This document shows positions 17,340 through 33,836 of a stretch of 33,836 nt of DNA, piece by piece. Origin of the DNA: a virus; IMG/VR virus record IMGVR_UViG_3300028837_000083, positions 1-33,836 of that record. The stretch is one strand, 5' to 3'. The translations under genes and the position numbers were made by a program. Under the pieces are notes generated by a model, which saw only the letters and a program-made list of their open reading frames with translations, was not told the origin of the DNA and did no database searches. Position 1 is the stretch's first letter. The number at the start of each line of letters is the position of its first letter.

Positions 17340-17603
17340 ATGCCGAAACCCTGTCATGGGAATTGTGCAGATCATTGTTGTTATTTCCGGGGCGTTATAT
17401 GTCCTTATGTCGAAGAAGACACCGTCCCCGGTCGGCGCTGGACCTGCGGCTTATTGCGGGAACTGGGAACCTGGGACGCGGTCCTGGAAGACGAACGATA
17501 TAGAACGATCGTCCAGGATCTTTATAATACGGTCCCCGAACTGGAAGGGACGAATTGCCGGGACTGGTACTGTAAGGATTTAATGAATGGCGACTCTGAC
17601 TGA
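17340..17603 (+). CDS. Cysteine-rich small protein (possible metal site)
   Basis: 87 residues with nine Cys, clustered as C5, C9, C13, C14, C21, C36 and C73, C78 near the end. The motif C-H-G-N-C-A-D-H-C-C and the later WTCGLLRELGTWD resemble a short family of phage and bacterial proteins thought to bind zinc or an iron-sulphur cluster. The overlap with the following adhesin start is 17 bases. It is unusual among structural genes. Metal binding is inference. Confidence 0.6.
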   Translation: MPKPCHGNCADHCCYFRGVICPYVEEDTVPGRRWTCGLLRELGTWDAVLEDERYRTIVQDLYNTVPELEGTNCRDWYCKDLMNGDSD

Positions 17604-19458
17604 ACTTCGCCCGAACGGGGATATATTAACGACAAGTATCCTTAAGGTCAATTCGGGAGGCGATACGCTCTGGTACCAGTGTATCGACGACGATCCCGAT
17701 AGTCCCGATTCGTCTGATTATATTTATAATTCCAACGACATCGACGCGACGTTAAAGGTCGACCTTACGGCGACGGATGCCGATTTAAGCAATATGGATA
17801 CGGCGACGGTCGCCGCCTATTTTTCGTCGAACGGAACGAGATCCGACGACTCGATCGTTATCTATATAAAGATAACGAACGCCGCCGAAACGACCGACTA
17901 TATCGTCGAAACGGAAATCGCCAGATGGGATAGCGGCGGCGCCCAGACGGGATTAAGAACTGCGGGATCTGTTACCGCGGCGGGGATAGCCGCGACGAAG
18001 GCGGACTGGGACGCGGCGCGACTTCATATTCGATACGATAATACGAAATCGAAGAACTGGGACGGGATAGATCTTCGGGTCGACGCTATCGAATTGCGGG
18101 GGACCTATTCGGCGGGCGGCGTCACCCATAATTCCGGGGCGAACCTGACCGGATCCGCGACCCTGGCGGCGGTCGCCGAAGTCGTCCATCAAGCGGCGGC
18201 GGATCTTTCGGGATCTGCGACAGTTGCCGCGATCGCCGAAGTTGTCCATCAAGCGACGGCGACCTTATCAGGATCCGGGACGGTTATCGCCGTCGGGGTC
18301 CTTCAGCACGAAGCGGAAGCGGCGTTATCAGGATCTGCGACGGTTGGCGCCCTGGCGGAAGTCGTCCATCAGGCGACTGCAGATCTAGCGGGATCCGCGA
18401 CTCTTACGGCGACCGCGGAAGTCGTCCATCAGGCGGAAGCGTCGTTATCTGGATCCGGGACAGTCGAAGCGGTCGGGACTATTTTAGGGACAGTCACCGG
18501 GACGGCGACTCTGGACGCGACGGCGACGGTCCAGGCGATCGCCGAAGTTATCCATCAAGCGACGGCGATCCTAGCGGGGTCCGCGACTATTACGGCGACG
18601 GCGACGAAAGAAGTCACCGGGACGGCGACCCTGGCGGGATCTGCGGCGCTTGCGGCGCTTGCGGAAGTCGTCCATCAGGCGATCGCGGATCTGACCGGAA
18701 CGGCGGATCTAGTCGCCCTGGCGGAAGTTATTCATCAGGCGATCGCGGATCTTTCGGGAACTGCGACCCTGGCGGCGGTCGGAACTGTCGACGTCGGCGC
18801 GGTAGTCACCGGCGCGGCGTCCCTTACTGCGACCGGATCCATGACGGCGGACGGATCCCAGATCCTGGTTTCCGCGTCGATCATATCCGGGACGGCGACT
18901 CTGGCGGCGGTTGGGACAGTCGAAGCGGCGGCGGCGGTCGAAGGCGCGGCGTCCCTTACTGCGACCGGATCCATGACGGCGGACGGATCCCAGGTCTTAG
19001 TTTCCGCGTCGATCATATCCGGGGCGGCGACCCTGACCGCGGATCCTGCGGCGGTCTTCGTTTCCGGGGCGTCCCTGGCGGGATCAGCGTCGATAGTAGC
19101 GACGGCGTTAGTCGGCGGGGAAGTTTCGGCGACGGCGACCCTGACCGCGACGGGATCCATAACGGCGGCGGGATCCATATTCAATGAAGCGACCGCGACT
19201 CTTACTGGGTCCGCGGTGTTAACGTCTAGTGGGGCGCTATTCCCCGGCGGGTTCGCGTCCCTGGCGGGAACTGCGACCCTGACGGGCGATATAGTCGGGA
19301 CGATCGTCGGCGATACGGAAATCGAAGCGGCGGTCCATGTAACGGGACGGGGCTTATTCGCCGATCAGGATCTACAACCCCTGGGCGTCTGGGGCGCCCG
19401 GATAGATAAGGATCTGTTAACACCGTTCGAATCCTTACGACGTAAACTTAGAAAATAA
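17587..19458 (+). CDS. Repeat-rich tail fibre/adhesin
   Basis: 623 residues. Residues 1-175 are a beta domain (ELRPNGDI, IYIKITNAAETTDYIVETEIARW, RLHIRYDN, AIELRGTY). Residues about 180-560 are low-complexity Ala/Thr/Ser/Gly repeats: first a 20-residue unit (EVVHQAxADLSGSATVAA), then two 44-residue units containing SLTATGSMTADGSQ. The last 35 residues (GRGLFADQDLQPLGVWGA, ending RRKLRK) differ and may attach to the tail. No Cys in the repeats. This looks like a long, flexible, self-repeating fibre, probably variable between related phages. Nothing identifies the receptor. Confidence 0.7.
   Translation: MATLTELRPNGDILTTSILKVNSGGDTLWYQCIDDDPDSPDSSDYIYNSNDIDATLKVDLTATDADLSNMDTATVAAYFSSNGTRSDDSIVIYIKITNAAETTDYIVETEIARWDSGGAQTGLRTAGSVTAAGIAATKADWDAARLHIRYDNTKSKNWDGIDLRVDAIELRGTYSAGGVTHNSGANLTGSATLAAVAEVVHQAAADLSGSATVAAIAEVVHQATATLSGSGTVIAVGVLQHEAEAALSGSATVGALAEVVHQATADLAGSATLTATAEVVHQAEASLSGSGTVEAVGTILGTVTGTATLDATATVQAIAEVIHQATAILAGSATITATATKEVTGTATLAGSAALAALAEVVHQAIADLTGTADLVALAEVIHQAIADLSGTATLAAVGTVDVGAVVTGAASLTATGSMTADGSQILVSASIISGTATLAAVGTVEAAAAVEGAASLTATGSMTADGSQVLVSASIISGAATLTADPAAVFVSGASLAGSASIVATALVGGEVSATATLTATGSITAAGSIFNEATATLTGSAVLTSSGALFPGGFASLAGTATLTGDIVGTIVGDTEIEAAVHVTGRGLFADQDLQPLGVWGARIDKDLLTPFESLRRKLRK
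18178..18790 (+). repeat. 60-base tandem repeats in fibre gene
   Basis: Units of exactly 60 bases (20 codons) beginning GAAGT(C/T)GTCCATCA start at 18178, 18238, about 18298, 18358 and 18418, with degenerate copies around 18538, 18664 and 18724. They encode the EVVHQA-LSGSAT units. Frequent GGATC sequences sit in each unit. Expansion or contraction by slippage is likely. Confidence 0.85.
18775..19038 (+). repeat. 132-base duplication in fibre gene
   Basis: Two adjacent copies, 18775-18906 and 18907-19038, share about 80-90 percent identity by eye, including a block with GCGTCCCTTACTGCGACCGG. Each encodes 44 residues. The period differs from the upstream 60-base units, so this is a later or separate duplication. 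Confidence 0.85.
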
Positions 19459-22417: not shown

Positions 22418-22634
22418 CGGCGGACCCGTCCTTCCATAGTTTCCAGGTCGAAAACCTGGCGGGGACATATCGTCCCCCGCGGCGGTTCATGTAATACCAG
22501 AACGACCGGGAATAAACCTTATGTCCCTGGTCGACCCATTCCTGGGCGTCGGACGATCGGTCGGCGAACTGACTCAGAACGATTCCCCGTTCGTTCGGGA
22601 CCTTCGCCATATAAAGTATTATCCGGGATCCCAT
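22410..22634 (-). CDS. Small protein, unknown
   Basis: 74 residues, aromatic and basic (SRSFWYYMNRRGGRYVP), starts by overlapping the ERF stop by one base (TAATG). No recognised family. Probably co-translated with the annealing protein. Confidence 0.55.
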   Translation of the reverse strand: MGSRIILYMAKVPNERGIVLSQFADRSSDAQEWVDQGHKVYSRSFWYYMNRRGGRYVPARFSTWKLWKDGSADG

Positions 22635-23488
22635 TAGAAGGGAATGTCGTCTTCGGTTTCAGGGGATCCGTTCTTCTTCTTAAATAGATCTTCGTCGATC
22701 CACGCGGGGACCTGTTCGGCGGGGACGTTTTCCAGGACCCAGGCGATCAGACCCTTATTCGCATGGGCGACGGCGTCGTCGACCGTTCCGGACTTTTCCC
22801 CGTCTTTATAGCGCAACCATTTATATTCCTTCCCCCAGATCCCGAACCATTCGGGCGGGGCGTCTTTCGCCAGGATAACGTCGGGGCGATTAAGAAGGGT
22901 AGCGGCATGGGGCGGACTTCCGGCGGCGCCGGACTCCGCCAGGGCGCCGACCTGATCCGCGTCCCAGGAGATCCGGCGACTGTCGTCGGGGATCTTCCGG
23001 GTCTTCGGCGGTTTTACTTCCGCGGATCCCGACACCGTTCGACCTGCGGGCGGCGGTTGGTCCCCGTTGGGTTCGCCGGACTGAAGCATAAAGGTCTGAA
23101 GGACGAAGTTCTTTATTGCATATCCCAGGAACTGATTCGTCGCCTTATCGGAATAGTCGATCGCCATAGAAGGGATCGTAATATCAACCGATTCGCCGGT
23201 CGTAGTATGGACCAGGCGGAAGACGATCTTTCCGGTCGATCTGTACGCGTATTTTATTTCGCCCTGGCGGTTCGTCGTCTTAATCGTTTCGACCAGTTCG
23301 TCGACGTCGACGGGGAAGGCGATCAGTCCGGCGGCGATCATGGCGGGGCGAACGGCGCCGATCGCGGCGTCCTTCGTAATGAAGGAATAAGGAACCCCGG
23401 CGGAGTCCGACTTCGGGACACCGGCGACGGAGTCATAGACTTCTAGAATCGCCTTATACAATGGTGATAGATCTTTCGGGGTCGTCAT
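22634..23488 (-). CDS. ERF-family single-strand annealing protein
   Basis: 284 residues. Residues 1-140 are the ERF core: LYKAILEVYDSVAGV, YSFITKDAAIGAVRPAMIAAGL and the hallmark DYSDKATNQFLGYAIK (111-126), then LQTFMLQSGEP. ERF proteins anneal complementary single strands during phage recombination. The rest of the chain is a Pro/Lys-rich linker and a second domain containing PEWFGIWGKEYKWLRYKDGEKSG and ending DDIPF, an acidic-hydrophobic tip like those that bind single-strand-binding proteins. GGAAAAAAG precedes ATG 23488. Identity is firm on the core motif. Confidence 0.9.
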   Translation of the reverse strand: MTTPKDLSPLYKAILEVYDSVAGVPKSDSAGVPYSFITKDAAIGAVRPAMIAAGLIAFPVDVDELVETIKTTNRQGEIKYAYRSTGKIVFRLVHTTTGESVDITIPSMAIDYSDKATNQFLGYAIKNFVLQTFMLQSGEPNGDQPPPAGRTVSGSAEVKPPKTRKIPDDSRRISWDADQVGALAESGAAGSPPHAATLLNRPDVILAKDAPPEWFGIWGKEYKWLRYKDGEKSGTVDDAVAHANKGLIAWVLENVPAEQVPAWIDEDLFKKKNGSPETEDDIPF

Positions 23489-25884: not shown

Positions 25885-26685
25885 ATGGCGATCGAAGTCA
25901 TAAATGCGGTCCTAGAATCGAAGGCGGAAAACCCTTCGAAGAAATGGGTCCTTCTGGGATTGGCGAATCATTCGGGACCTGACGGGCGGAACTGCTATCC
26001 GTCCGTTCGTCGTTTAATGGTCTATGGCGGTCTTTCAGAATCAACGGTCCGGGCGAAACTGGGGGAACTGCGCGACGATGGTCTGATCCGGGTCGTTCGC
26101 AAGGCGTCCAGGTATAGACCGACCGAATATATGATCGACGTCGATCGCCTGGTCGAAATGCGGGATCCTATCCTGGACGAACTTTCGGGGAAGACCCCCA
26201 AATCCGGGACAGAAAACGTTGAGCTGTCGAATGGGACCCCCATATCTGGGGGGTTAAAAGACAGGGGTCCAGGAAATGGAGGTCTGGACGACCAGGGGTC
26301 CATTTCCCGGATACCAGGGGTCCAGGAGCCGGAGTCCAGGGGTCCAGGAGATGGACCCGAACCGTCCTTTAACCTTTTAATTAAACCATCAGATTTAAAT
26401 ATTTCTTTCGATCAAAGCGGATTTATTCAGGCGAAGATCGGGATCCTGGGTCAAGTCACCGGCGGGAAACCCCATATCCTACCGCCGACCTGGGATCTGT
26501 ACGATCATACCTTCGCCGCGTCGGTCGAAGACGGGACCGGCGTCGTTATCTGCGTAGGCGAAGATCCCGATTATCAGAAATTATATCTTCGGGACCGGGC
26601 GACCCTTTTCAGGAATCATTGGTTCGGGGTCGACCTGGTCGAATTCATAACGGAGTCGGAATGGAAAAAAACGAAGACGGACTGA
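25885..26685 (+). CDS. O-like replication initiator with internal origin
   Basis: 266 residues. Residues 1-80 are a winged helix-turn-helix domain of phage replication proteins: KKWVLLGLANHSGPDGRNCYPSVRRLM then LSESTVRAKLGELRDDGLI (helix-turn-helix at about 38-75). Residues 105-165 are a Gly/Pro-rich linker whose DNA carries four direct repeats (126-154 in codons). The C-terminal 100 residues hold PPTWDLYDHTFAASVEDGTGVVICVG and a last helix, the part that would contact a helicase loader or helicase. Gene order, domain order and iterons inside the gene are as in lambda O. Helicase or loader genes were not recognised. Confidence 0.7.
   Translation: MAIEVINAVLESKAENPSKKWVLLGLANHSGPDGRNCYPSVRRLMVYGGLSESTVRAKLGELRDDGLIRVVRKASRYRPTEYMIDVDRLVEMRDPILDELSGKTPKSGTENVELSNGTPISGGLKDRGPGNGGLDDQGSISRIPGVQEPESRGPGDGPEPSFNLLIKPSDLNISFDQSGFIQAKIGILGQVTGGKPHILPPTWDLYDHTFAASVEDGTGVVICVGEDPDYQKLYLRDRATLFRNHWFGVDLVEFITESEWKKTKTD
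26262..26346 (+). repeat. Iterons: four direct repeats CAGGGGTCCA
   Basis: CAGGGGTCCA at 26262-26271, 26293-26302, 26315-26324 and 26337-26346. Starts are 31, 22 and 22 bases apart, near three, two and two helical turns. Three of the copies extend to CAGGGGTCCAGGA. All lie within the initiator gene's linker, and the amino acid pattern is not repetitive enough to require them. Confidence 0.85.
26367..26435 (+). other. AT-rich unwinding region candidate (origin)
   Basis: This stretch, just 20 bases after the last iteron, includes TTTAACCTTTTAATTAAA, ATTTAAATATTTC and ATCAAAGC. It is far more AT-rich than its surroundings. Iterons followed by AT-rich DNA inside the initiator gene is the architecture of lambda ori. 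Confidence 0.7.
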
Positions 26686-27515
26686 CTCAGGAAATGCGGG
26701 ACGATATAGTCGTCGACGTCGACCTGGTCGAACTTCTGAATTCGGGATCGACGGAAGTATCCAAGCATTACGGATACGAACCGGACGGCGGTCGCGGGAT
26801 AGAAAAGATCCAGGAAATCGAACGGGCGCTGGAAGACGGCGATATTCGGTTTATAAAAGACGTCACGCCGCGACCCTGGAATGACCGGGTCGACTTCGAA
26901 ACCTGGGGACTGGTTATCCCCGAAGATTTATCCCGCGAAGATCATAGATCCGTCGGTCTATCCCTGGCGGCTATGAAAAAGGCGGTCCATTACTGGGTCG
27001 GCGACTGGATCCGTTTCGGGGTCTGGAAATGGGGCGACGAATTCTTTCAGGAAATCGACGCGGAAGACTGGGCGGACGGTTTTATTTCCCAGGAATTCGG
27101 CTTTACGTTTAAGACAGTCCAGAACGACTTATGGGTCTGCGAACGGGTCGATCCTGACGTCCGTAAACTGGCGCCCGCGTTCGGCTATTCCGACGCCGTC
27201 GCGGTCCTTCCCAGGGACGACCAGGTCCGGGTCCTGAAACAAGCGCGGCGCCTGGGCTGGAAGATCCAGAAGGTCCGCGACGTGAAAAGGCGGATCCGCC
27301 AGGTCCGGGGGGAAATCCCATATCGAAAAGAAAATATAAAAGTTTCCAGTCCAGATCCCGATCGACAATTCCGGCGCCTGGTCGGACTCTATCTAGCGAT
27401 CGAAGACTGGATCCGGGCTTATCAGTATTACGGCGGCGGGCGGCTGGCGCATAGGACAATTCAGAAGAAGCGGATCCGGGCGAAGATTATCAGGGAACTG
27501 CAGGAGTCGAAATGA
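26661..27515 (+). CDS. Phage/plasmid-type protein of unknown role (WxGDWxxxG family)
   Basis: 284 residues from ATG 26661, chosen for GGAGTCGGA upstream; it overlaps the initiator gene by 25 bases. Residues about 95-200 show LSLAAMKKAVHYWVGDWIRFG, EEFFQ-like GDEFFQEI, then TFKTVQNDLWVCERV and VLPRDDQVRVLKQARRLGWKIQKVRDVKRRI. This set resembles a family widely found in phages and plasmids with a W-x-GDW-x2-G core followed by helices for DNA binding. The exact function in replication or transcription is unknown. The C-terminal 70 residues are basic. Confidence 0.55.
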   Translation: MEKNEDGLTQEMRDDIVVDVDLVELLNSGSTEVSKHYGYEPDGGRGIEKIQEIERALEDGDIRFIKDVTPRPWNDRVDFETWGLVIPEDLSREDHRSVGLSLAAMKKAVHYWVGDWIRFGVWKWGDEFFQEIDAEDWADGFISQEFGFTFKTVQNDLWVCERVDPDVRKLAPAFGYSDAVAVLPRDDQVRVLKQARRLGWKIQKVRDVKRRIRQVRGEIPYRKENIKVSSPDPDRQFRRLVGLYLAIEDWIRAYQYYGGGRLAHRTIQKKRIRAKIIRELQESK

Positions 27516-30058: not shown

Positions 30059-31114
30059 ATGGACTATATCCAGAAACGGCTTAGAATCGATCCTGACGCG
30101 TCCGTCCCCGACGTCGGGTTAAACTGCGAAAATGATCTTTCGATCATATGCGGCGATAACCTGGACGTCATGGTCGAAATGGGGAAGAACTTAGGGAAGG
30201 GACATTATAGGGCGACCTTCGACCTGGTCGAATTCGACGGACCTTATAAGTCCGAAACGACCGGCGCCGAATGGGACGACTTAACCTGGAACGAATTCCG
30301 CGATCATTACGAAACCAGATTCAAGATAGCGCGTTATCTTATGACGCCCTGGGGGATCCTGTTCGCGTTCGGATACCCAGAAGGCGCCGCGGAAATCCGG
30401 GACGTTTCGATCCGGGAGTCCCGATTATTTCTTCGCCGTTGGATAACCTGGGATAAGACGAATAACGCCCATCATGGGCGGAAGATCGAAGCGATCCTTT
30501 TATTTATGAAAACGGATCCGAAGTTCGATCTTCTGAAGTTCGGCGAATTCATAAAGAAGAAGCGACTCGAGCGCGACTGGTCCCTGGTCGACGTCGGGAA
30601 AAAGATCGGCGATCCCTGGGTCCATCGGGGCGGGAACCTATATCACGAAACCGGATCCGGCGGTTTTCCCGATCAGGATCTATATCTTCGGTTGGCGGAT
30701 CTTTTCGAATTCGACCCGAAGGAATATTTCCATATCGTCGACCCGGTCTTCCCAGGGTTAACGAACTTAGATCTAATCAGGACGCCGCGAACGGAACGGG
30801 CGGTCGACCTGGGCGGGAACCTGCGATCGAAACCGCGGATCCTTTACGAACAGATCTTCCGGGCGGGGATCCCCCCGGTCCAGATCGCCGAAAGACCGCG
30901 GGCTTTAATCGCATATGGCGGATCCGGGAACGCGGCGATCGCGGCGGCGTCCCTGGGATTCCAGACGATCGTTATCGAAGAAGATCGGGAACGATGCGCG
31001 GATATTTACCGGCGCGCGGAATGGATCCTTAATCGGCGGGCGATCGAAAACCCCGACCAGGACCTGGGTCCTATTTTTAGAAAAAACGGGGAACTTGCCG
31101 ACGATGCGAAATAA
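30059..31114 (+). CDS. DNA methyltransferase (beta class) with embedded XRE-like domain
   Basis: 351 residues. Motif IV occurs as DGPY (60-63) in place of DPPY, followed by SETTGAEWDDLTWNEF as in amino-methyltransferases. Motif I comes last: YGGSGNAAIAAASLGFQTIVIEED (286-309), so the order is that of beta-class enzymes. Between them residues about 161-225 (FGEFIKKKRLERDWSLVDVGKKIG, LYLRLADLFEFDP) look like an XRE helix-turn-helix acting as the target-recognition domain. A KPRILYEQIFRAG stretch precedes motif I. No Shine-Dalgarno is clear at ATG 30059. DGPY and the loss of the usual DPF before motif I make activity uncertain. Confidence 0.75.
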   Translation: MDYIQKRLRIDPDASVPDVGLNCENDLSIICGDNLDVMVEMGKNLGKGHYRATFDLVEFDGPYKSETTGAEWDDLTWNEFRDHYETRFKIARYLMTPWGILFAFGYPEGAAEIRDVSIRESRLFLRRWITWDKTNNAHHGRKIEAILLFMKTDPKFDLLKFGEFIKKKRLERDWSLVDVGKKIGDPWVHRGGNLYHETGSGGFPDQDLYLRLADLFEFDPKEYFHIVDPVFPGLTNLDLIRTPRTERAVDLGGNLRSKPRILYEQIFRAGIPPVQIAERPRALIAYGGSGNAAIAAASLGFQTIVIEEDRERCADIYRRAEWILNRRAIENPDQDLGPIFRKNGELADDAK

Positions 31115-32902: not shown

Positions 32903-33836
32903 GTACGACCCGAAGGGATTCGTTCATAAGTTTATAAGGTTTCCCGAAGGTCAGTCGCCGACGAAGTATCAGGACCGGATCCTGGACGCGGTTGTCCCGA
33001 AGAAGCGGGTCGCCGTCCGGGGTCCGCATGGTTTAGGGAAGACGGCGGTCGCGGCTTGGATCATACTCTGGGCGGTTTTAACCCATGACGACGTTAAGGT
33101 CCCCTGTACCGCGTCGAAATGGCGCCAGTTAACGAAATTCCTTTTCCCCGAAATCCATAAATGGGCTATGCGGCTGGACTGGGACGCGATCGGTCGTCCC
33201 CCATTTACCGCGCGGGAAATGATGGTCCTATCCCTTCGCCTGGGTCCGACCAGGGAAGCGTTCGCCCTGGCGTCGAACGATCCGACGGCGATCGAAGGCG
33301 CCCATGCGGGGCGGATCCTTTACGTTTACGACGAAGCGAAGACGATCCCGGCGGCGACATTCGACGCGACGGAAGGCGCGTTCGCGGGCGCCGGGGACGA
33401 CGCCGAACAGGAGGCGTTCGCCCTGGTCATTTCGACCCCTGGGGATCCTTCGGGGCGGTTTTACGATATTCATTCCAGGGCGCCAGGGTACGAAGACTGG
33501 TTCGCGATCCACGTTACCTTAGAAGAGTCGATCGAAGCGGGTCGAATTTCGAAGACCTGGGCGGAAGCGCGTCTTCGACAATGGGGCGAAAAGTCGGCGA
33601 TTTACCAGAACCGGGTCCTGGGGGAATTCGCCAGTTCGTCCCCGGACGATATAGTTATTCCCCTTTCCTGGATCGAAGCGGCTAACGATCGTTGGCGCGA
33701 ATGGAAGGACGCGGGCGGCGAATTCTTTATGGAATTCGAAGACGAATACGGAAGGTCCCAGAAGGAACCGATCCTGAAAACCGCGGTCAGTTGCGACGTC
33801 GGTCGGGGCGGGGATAAGACGGTTATTATCGAACGA
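32790..33836 (+). CDS. Large terminase subunit, N-terminal 349 residues (3' truncated)
   Basis: Packaging motor ATPase-nuclease, cut off by the window end. Walker A GPHGLGKT (78-85), Walker B ILYVYDE (176-182) with catalytic Glu182, the coupling motif STPGDPSGRF (215-224), and the first nuclease Asp, D336 in SCDVGRGGDKT. ATG 32790 has GGAG four bases upstream and overlaps the small subunit by 113 bases; no other start lies close downstream of that gene's stop. The frame is open to the last base. The remaining nuclease domain lies outside the window. Confidence 0.95.
   Translation, partial: MSLIQKDDWLLSPDSLNSFLTDLQILSGQTSENLIPYKYDPKGFVHKFIRFPEGQSPTKYQDRILDAVVPKKRVAVRGPHGLGKTAVAAWIILWAVLTHDDVKVPCTASKWRQLTKFLFPEIHKWAMRLDWDAIGRPPFTAREMMVLSLRLGPTREAFALASNDPTAIEGAHAGRILYVYDEAKTIPAATFDATEGAFAGAGDDAEQEAFALVISTPGDPSGRFYDIHSRAPGYEDWFAIHVTLEESIEAGRISKTWAEARLRQWGEKSAIYQNRVLGEFASSSPDDIVIPLSWIEAANDRWREWKDAGGEFFMEFEDEYGRSQKEPILKTAVSCDVGRGGDKTVIIER

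Follow-up and report, generated by a model that had tools for sequence, protein, structure and literature searches.

Here we report a putative replication origin within the initiator gene of an uncultured virus, together with a rule that pairs one residue of the protein with one base of its repeats. The gene holds four 19-bp dyad iterons followed by AT-rich DNA, and this in-gene array, laid out on the plan of phage lambda, is most likely the phage replication origin. Judged from sequence and from several hundred relatives, the initiator and its iterons are not a one-off pair; they are one variant of a widespread class in which a readable rule links residue and base. The DNA analysed, here called the window, is the whole of the uncultured virus record IMGVR_UViG_3300028837_000083 (33,836 bases).

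Results

Among the products of the window are portal, head protease, major head and tape-measure proteins. As a contig it is not closed, because a probable large terminase gene (33000-33836, + strand, assigned by reading) is cut by the right contig end and the portal gene begins at base 5. Elsewhere on the contig are an Erf-like single-strand annealing protein (22634-23488, - strand; PHROG 155, 1e-10), whose gene lies on the other strand, upstream of the initiator operon that diverges from it, and an N6/N4 DNA methyltransferase (30059-31114, + strand; Pfam 8.7e-10) with an apparent Cro/CI-type HTH insert at about residues 149-230 (PHROG repressor match 0.0019). The contig reaches its highest GC content (64%) in a part that encodes a 623-aa protein of degenerate Gly-Ser-Ala-Thr-Leu / Glu-Val-Val-His-Gln repeats (17587-19458, + strand). 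The features of the initiator region are as follows.

25885-26685, + strand: replication initiator gene, 266 aa, containing the putative origin (HTH_36 9.6e-8; PHROG 1032 'replication initiation protein' 8e-17; PHROG 8540 'O-like' 2.7e-10)
25885-26190, + strand: predicted winged helix-turn-helix (wHTH) DNA-binding domain, residues 1-102 (AlphaFold2 on 74 aligned relatives, mean pLDDT 94; HTH_36 1.6e-8)
26038-26076, + strand: recognition helix of the model, residues 52-64, with Ser53 (codon 26041-26043) as the residue that tracks the iteron base
26193-26250, - strand: doubtful pair of degenerate GACCCCC-A-WATC-YGGG stretches, at 26193-26208 and 26235-26250, similar to half-iterons in inverted orientation
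26262-26280, + strand: iteron 1, CAGGGGTCCAGGAAATGGA
26293-26311, + strand: iteron 2, CAGGGGTCCATTTCCCGGA
26315-26333, + strand: iteron 3, CAGGGGTCCAGGAGCCGGA
26337-26358, + strand: iteron 4, with the extended palindrome GGGTCCA-GGAGA-TGGACCC
26366-26435, no strand: AT-rich block, candidate unwinding element (60-base minimum 23% GC)
26661-27515, + strand: next gene, 284 aa, beginning within the last bases of the initiator gene; a candidate loader partner on the strength of its position alone

The initiator has an N-terminal HTH_36 domain. In Pfam, HTH_36 was the best match, and neither the full protein nor its domain matched PF04492 (Phage_rep_O, lambda O). A single-sequence structure model reached a pLDDT of 35 and was replaced by the alignment-based wHTH model, which places Ser53 in the first turn of the recognition helix. 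The closest solved folds to the modelled domain are MarR/ArsR-like, and the closest viral models are phage HTH proteins, one of them a replication protein O. A DnaA-N-like C-terminal domain, suspected by eye, was dropped after Pfam and PDB sequence searches came back empty. The adjoining gene matched no PHROG family and no Pfam entry above the cut-off, and no P-like gene was recognised beside the initiator.

The sequence CAGGGGTCCA occurs exactly four times in the contig, always on the + strand and all inside one 85-base stretch of the initiator gene. The earlier note had described four direct repeats 31, 22 and 22 bases apart in the linker-coding part, and exact copies do start at 26262, 26293, 26315 and 26337, spaced by about two helical turns. 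When one mismatch was allowed, a single extra match appeared in 33,836 bases (33432, minus strand), and a total of five matches was reached in 0 of 100 dinucleotide shuffles. A four-copy 10-mer arose in 0 of 5000 synonymous-codon permutations within the initiator gene, while codon-order shuffling restricted to the linker gave at least four copies in 7 of 5000 trials. The repeat unit had been under-described in the earlier note: GGA stands at positions 17-19 of all four copies, so that the true unit is a 19-bp hyphenated dyad, CAGGGG-TCC-A-N6-GGA (TCC...GGA). The four copies occupy all three reading frames and encode the peptides RGPG, QGSI, PGVQ and RGPG, which places the constraint on the DNA and not on the peptide.

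A search for viral relatives with the single window protein found none, and a scan of 2.9 million viral contigs for two copies of CAGGGGTCCA returned four loci only, two of them in linkers of other replication-initiator-like genes. In a three-copy scan for GGGGTNCA, 97 of 124 arrays among the matches listed fell within or overlapped an HTH gene of the initiator family, mostly as GGGGTGCA. As a control, GGGGTCCA triplets in bacterial genomes yielded 118 arrays, of which 0/118 were in HTH initiators. Relatives were then picked by protein, so as not to select on the repeat. The earlier note had proposed a comparison of iterons in homologous genes and held that homologues lacking repeats would tell against its reading; at least two GGGGTGCA lie inside the gene in 72 of 80 viral relatives chosen by protein alone, and homologues without GGGGTGCA arrays form a minority (8 of 80, three of the eight having other repeats). 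In-gene repeats were also widespread in prokaryotic-genome relatives chosen by protein, in a second viral set and among named phages and plasmids; outside the core they have drifted to GGGTGACA, GGGGTGAAC and GGGGCGCA, and to GAACCAGTCA in ST64B and mEp460.

The iteron class can be written as GGGGTNCA-n(3-5)-TGN'A, with GGGGTGCA as its commonest form and the window as its Ser/TCCA variant. The window has four GGGGTCCA, with the dyad mate GGA in 4/4 and TGGA in 2/4, where at least three GGGGTNCA with a TGN'A mate define the class. Phage and plasmid initiators from Gammaproteobacteria, Actinomycetota and others share the class, so the suggestion of an isolated new initiator-iteron pair gives way to a C-letter version of that class. 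Two PF04492 proteins (L131 and L005) also bear the GGGGTNCA iteron core. The HTH_36 genes of Kineococcus pKRAD01 (L612) and a Thermobispora bispora plasmid (L613) carry 6-8 copies of ACGGGGTGCA / GGTGCGAC; because these plasmids have in-gene iterons, the class is not confined to phages. In a minority of loci (L012, L101, L103, L106, L176, L630) the array is inverted relative to the initiator gene and the residue-base rule is kept. A search of the open-access literature turned up no account of this iteron class.

Position 3 of the recognition helix, counted within S-E-[3]-T-V-R, was compared with base N in 47 non-redundant HTH proteins with a GGGGTNCA array. Arg was present in 30 of 30 proteins with N=G, and Arg went with G in 30 of 31 (Fisher p = 1e-11); Ser went with C or T in 13 of 14. 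The window, with Ser53 and C, fits the rule, and the exceptions were L164 (Arg, A) and L137 (Ser, A). Selection does not create this link, because arrays were collected for all four letters. Among the Ser proteins, K6-R7 was accompanied by T or a mixture of T and C, and C was present in the rest for which the letter is unambiguous (the window, L163, L176 and L220).

An automated scan of 101 non-redundant genes selected by protein found a GGT-repeat in 35, vs 1% of shuffles. Of the 23 Arg genes in this set 20 had N=G, vs 2 of the 12 others (p = 8e-5); the exceptions were T in three Arg genes and G in two Ser genes. Newly retrieved arrays of C and T type added six HTH genes with a readable helix, in which residue 3 was never Arg (Ser in L630 and L637, Gly in L639 and L640, Asn in L641 and L642). 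As the rule predicts, the letter is C in L630 (Ser, R6) and T in L637 (Ser, K6-R7). Drifted iterons (GGGGTGAAG, GGGGTGACA, GGGGTGAAC, TGGTGAAA and TGGTGACT; L256, L542, L566, L580, L600, L432, L434, L500) retain GGTG together with Arg at residue 3 and vary in the bases that follow N, a hint that other residues of the recognition helix may read those bases.

The second half-site mirrors N. Among readable mates, G-type iterons have TGC in 89 of 92 cases, T-type TGA in 15 of 17 and C-type TGG in 8 of 15; the remaining C-type mates are TGA, and most of the genes concerned have both C and T iterons. At gene level the mate follows N with Fisher p = 7e-9, and no such match occurs at other offsets. 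Between L033 (Arg; GGGGTGCAGGAGATGCACCCAAACCG) and the window (Ser; GGGGTCCAGGAGATGGACCCGAACCG), the last iterons are identical except for N, its mate and one further base. On the simplest reading, the same helix would act twice, one copy on each half-site.

Shared ancestry could inflate the association, because an independent-pairs test on the poorly resolved short-domain tree gave one independent pair only on supported branches. An initiator that binds the repeats, with a residue-3/N association that mostly reflects descent and no physical contact, is nevertheless unlikely. The domain tree is largely unresolved; against descent, its best version has 11 changes of the Arg state with non-Arg rows scattered, L131 and L005 share the iteron core from a different family, and the association reappears in the drifted motifs and the fresh loci. 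The pattern suggests that the residue-base rule likely arose repeatedly.

The AT-rich DNA noted after the repeats is borne out, with 30% GC at 26366-26435 vs 53.7% for the whole initiator gene, and its core (26368-26427, 23% GC) falls in the lowest 0.012% of all 60-mers of the contig. Among 31 relatives, mean GC drops from 0.54-0.62 across the array to 0.38 right after the last iteron. The commonest iteron spacing among relatives is 22 bp, and a palindromic last iteron like iteron 4 of the window occurs in 22 of 32 same-strand relatives. The site has the plan of a lambda-type origin, namely in-gene iterons of about 19 bp with dyad symmetry, then AT-rich DNA; the earlier note had recognised this arrangement inside the initiator's own gene, and it is kept in relatives. 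GC skew on the contig tracks gene direction and hence speaks neither for nor against an origin at the array.

The repeats might instead be an autoregulatory operator through which the wHTH protein controls its own transcription from within the gene, with replication beginning elsewhere. Initiators often self-repress, and the MarR/ArsR-like wHTH is a repressor-type fold. This reading is nonetheless improbable to a high degree, given that the array lies about 380-470 bases into the gene, not at a promoter, and precedes a conserved AT dip, and that the matched families are of replication initiation, not regulation; operator and origin roles are in any case compatible with each other. That the repeats are a peptide or codon-usage repeat of a disordered linker with no role as DNA is hardly credible and already largely refuted: the linker is Gly/Pro rich and of low complexity, and GGGGTCCA triplets do occur in repetitive bacterial genes, but the window copies use three frames, iterons use two or three frames in 30 of 32 same-strand genes of relatives, the synonymous permutations never gave four copies, and N covaries with its dyad mate.

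Discussion

The iteron of lambda and Stx phages, an imperfect inverted repeat of 19 bp within gene O, has an AT-rich tract for a neighbour and is bound by O dimers (PMC7466680). Like ori-lambda and the Stx origins, the window has a mid-gene origin plan with four iterons, a unit of about 19 bp in inverted repeat, an AT tract after the array and an HTH initiator (PMC7466680). The description as lambda-like therefore holds for the plan (19-bp dyad, four copies, spacing of about two turns) and fails for the protein family. As had been noted, both partners differ from lambda: the protein lies outside PF04492, and the iteron sequence is unrelated to that of lambda.

Other parallels are Pseudomonas phages vB_Pae_BR123a and SC_8_H2H8_2017 and Arthrobacter phage Abidatro, which have a homologous wHTH domain and in-gene GGGG-T-N iterons. 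These three combine Arg at residue 3 with GGGTGCA or GGGGTGAA, in contrast to Ser53 with GGGGTCCA in the window. Their initiator genes are annotated as hypothetical or HTH and their iterons are unannotated; in SC_8_H2H8_2017 a 'replication protein P' gene immediately follows the HTH_36 initiator. The replication proteins of Salmonella phage ST64B and Enterobacteria phage mEp460, found via the window domain, are likewise HTH initiators with in-gene repeats, of which there are three copies of GAACCAGTCA, outside the GGGGTNCA core. The IncU plasmid RA3, with oriV at the 3' end of repB and primers with AGGGGTGCAT near repB, resembles the window in having a direct-repeat origin tied to the initiator gene (PMC9455977). 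RA3 was rejected as a precedent for the class: RepB matches neither Pfam nor the class profile, and GGGGTNCA is absent from bases 1-2600.

Taken as a whole, the explanation that we consider very probable is that the site is an origin at which the wHTH domain binds the dyad iterons and the AT block opens, residue 3 going with N. The repeats with their dyad and reading frames, the AT block, the conservation in relatives and the association of N with both residue 3 and the dyad mate are observed; binding, dimer formation, unwinding, helicase loading and the start of replication at the array are the parts that we infer. Each 19-bp iteron, CAGGGG-TCCA-n5-TGGA, would be bound by the wHTH domain, probably dimeric, of the protein encoded at 25885-26685, one recognition helix reading TCCA and the partner helix the mirrored TGGA, while the GGGG arm would set the direction. 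Four occupied iterons (31, 22 and 22 apart) would assemble into a nucleoprotein complex whose strain opens the AT block (26366-26435), and the host helicase would be loaded there, perhaps via the C-terminal part of the initiator or the product of the next gene. Base N goes with residue 3 as Arg-G or as Ser, Gly or Asn with a pyrimidine, the window pair being Ser53-C.

Phage replication specificity is known mainly from a few lambdoid models. We think it likely that a large, dispersed class of phage and plasmid initiators shares the in-gene dyad iteron GGGGTNCA-n-TGN'A, that one helix residue selects N on both half-sites, and that origin specificity, and probably replicon coexistence, can be read from sequence. 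If this is true, one residue and one base would set the pairing from Pseudomonas phages to a Kineococcus plasmid, origins would become predictable in many prophages and metagenomic phages, and compatibility groups could be proposed from sequence. The class would also show how specificity changes in a self-nested origin, where the helix codon and repeats a few hundred bases away shift together while the repeats still encode a working protein.
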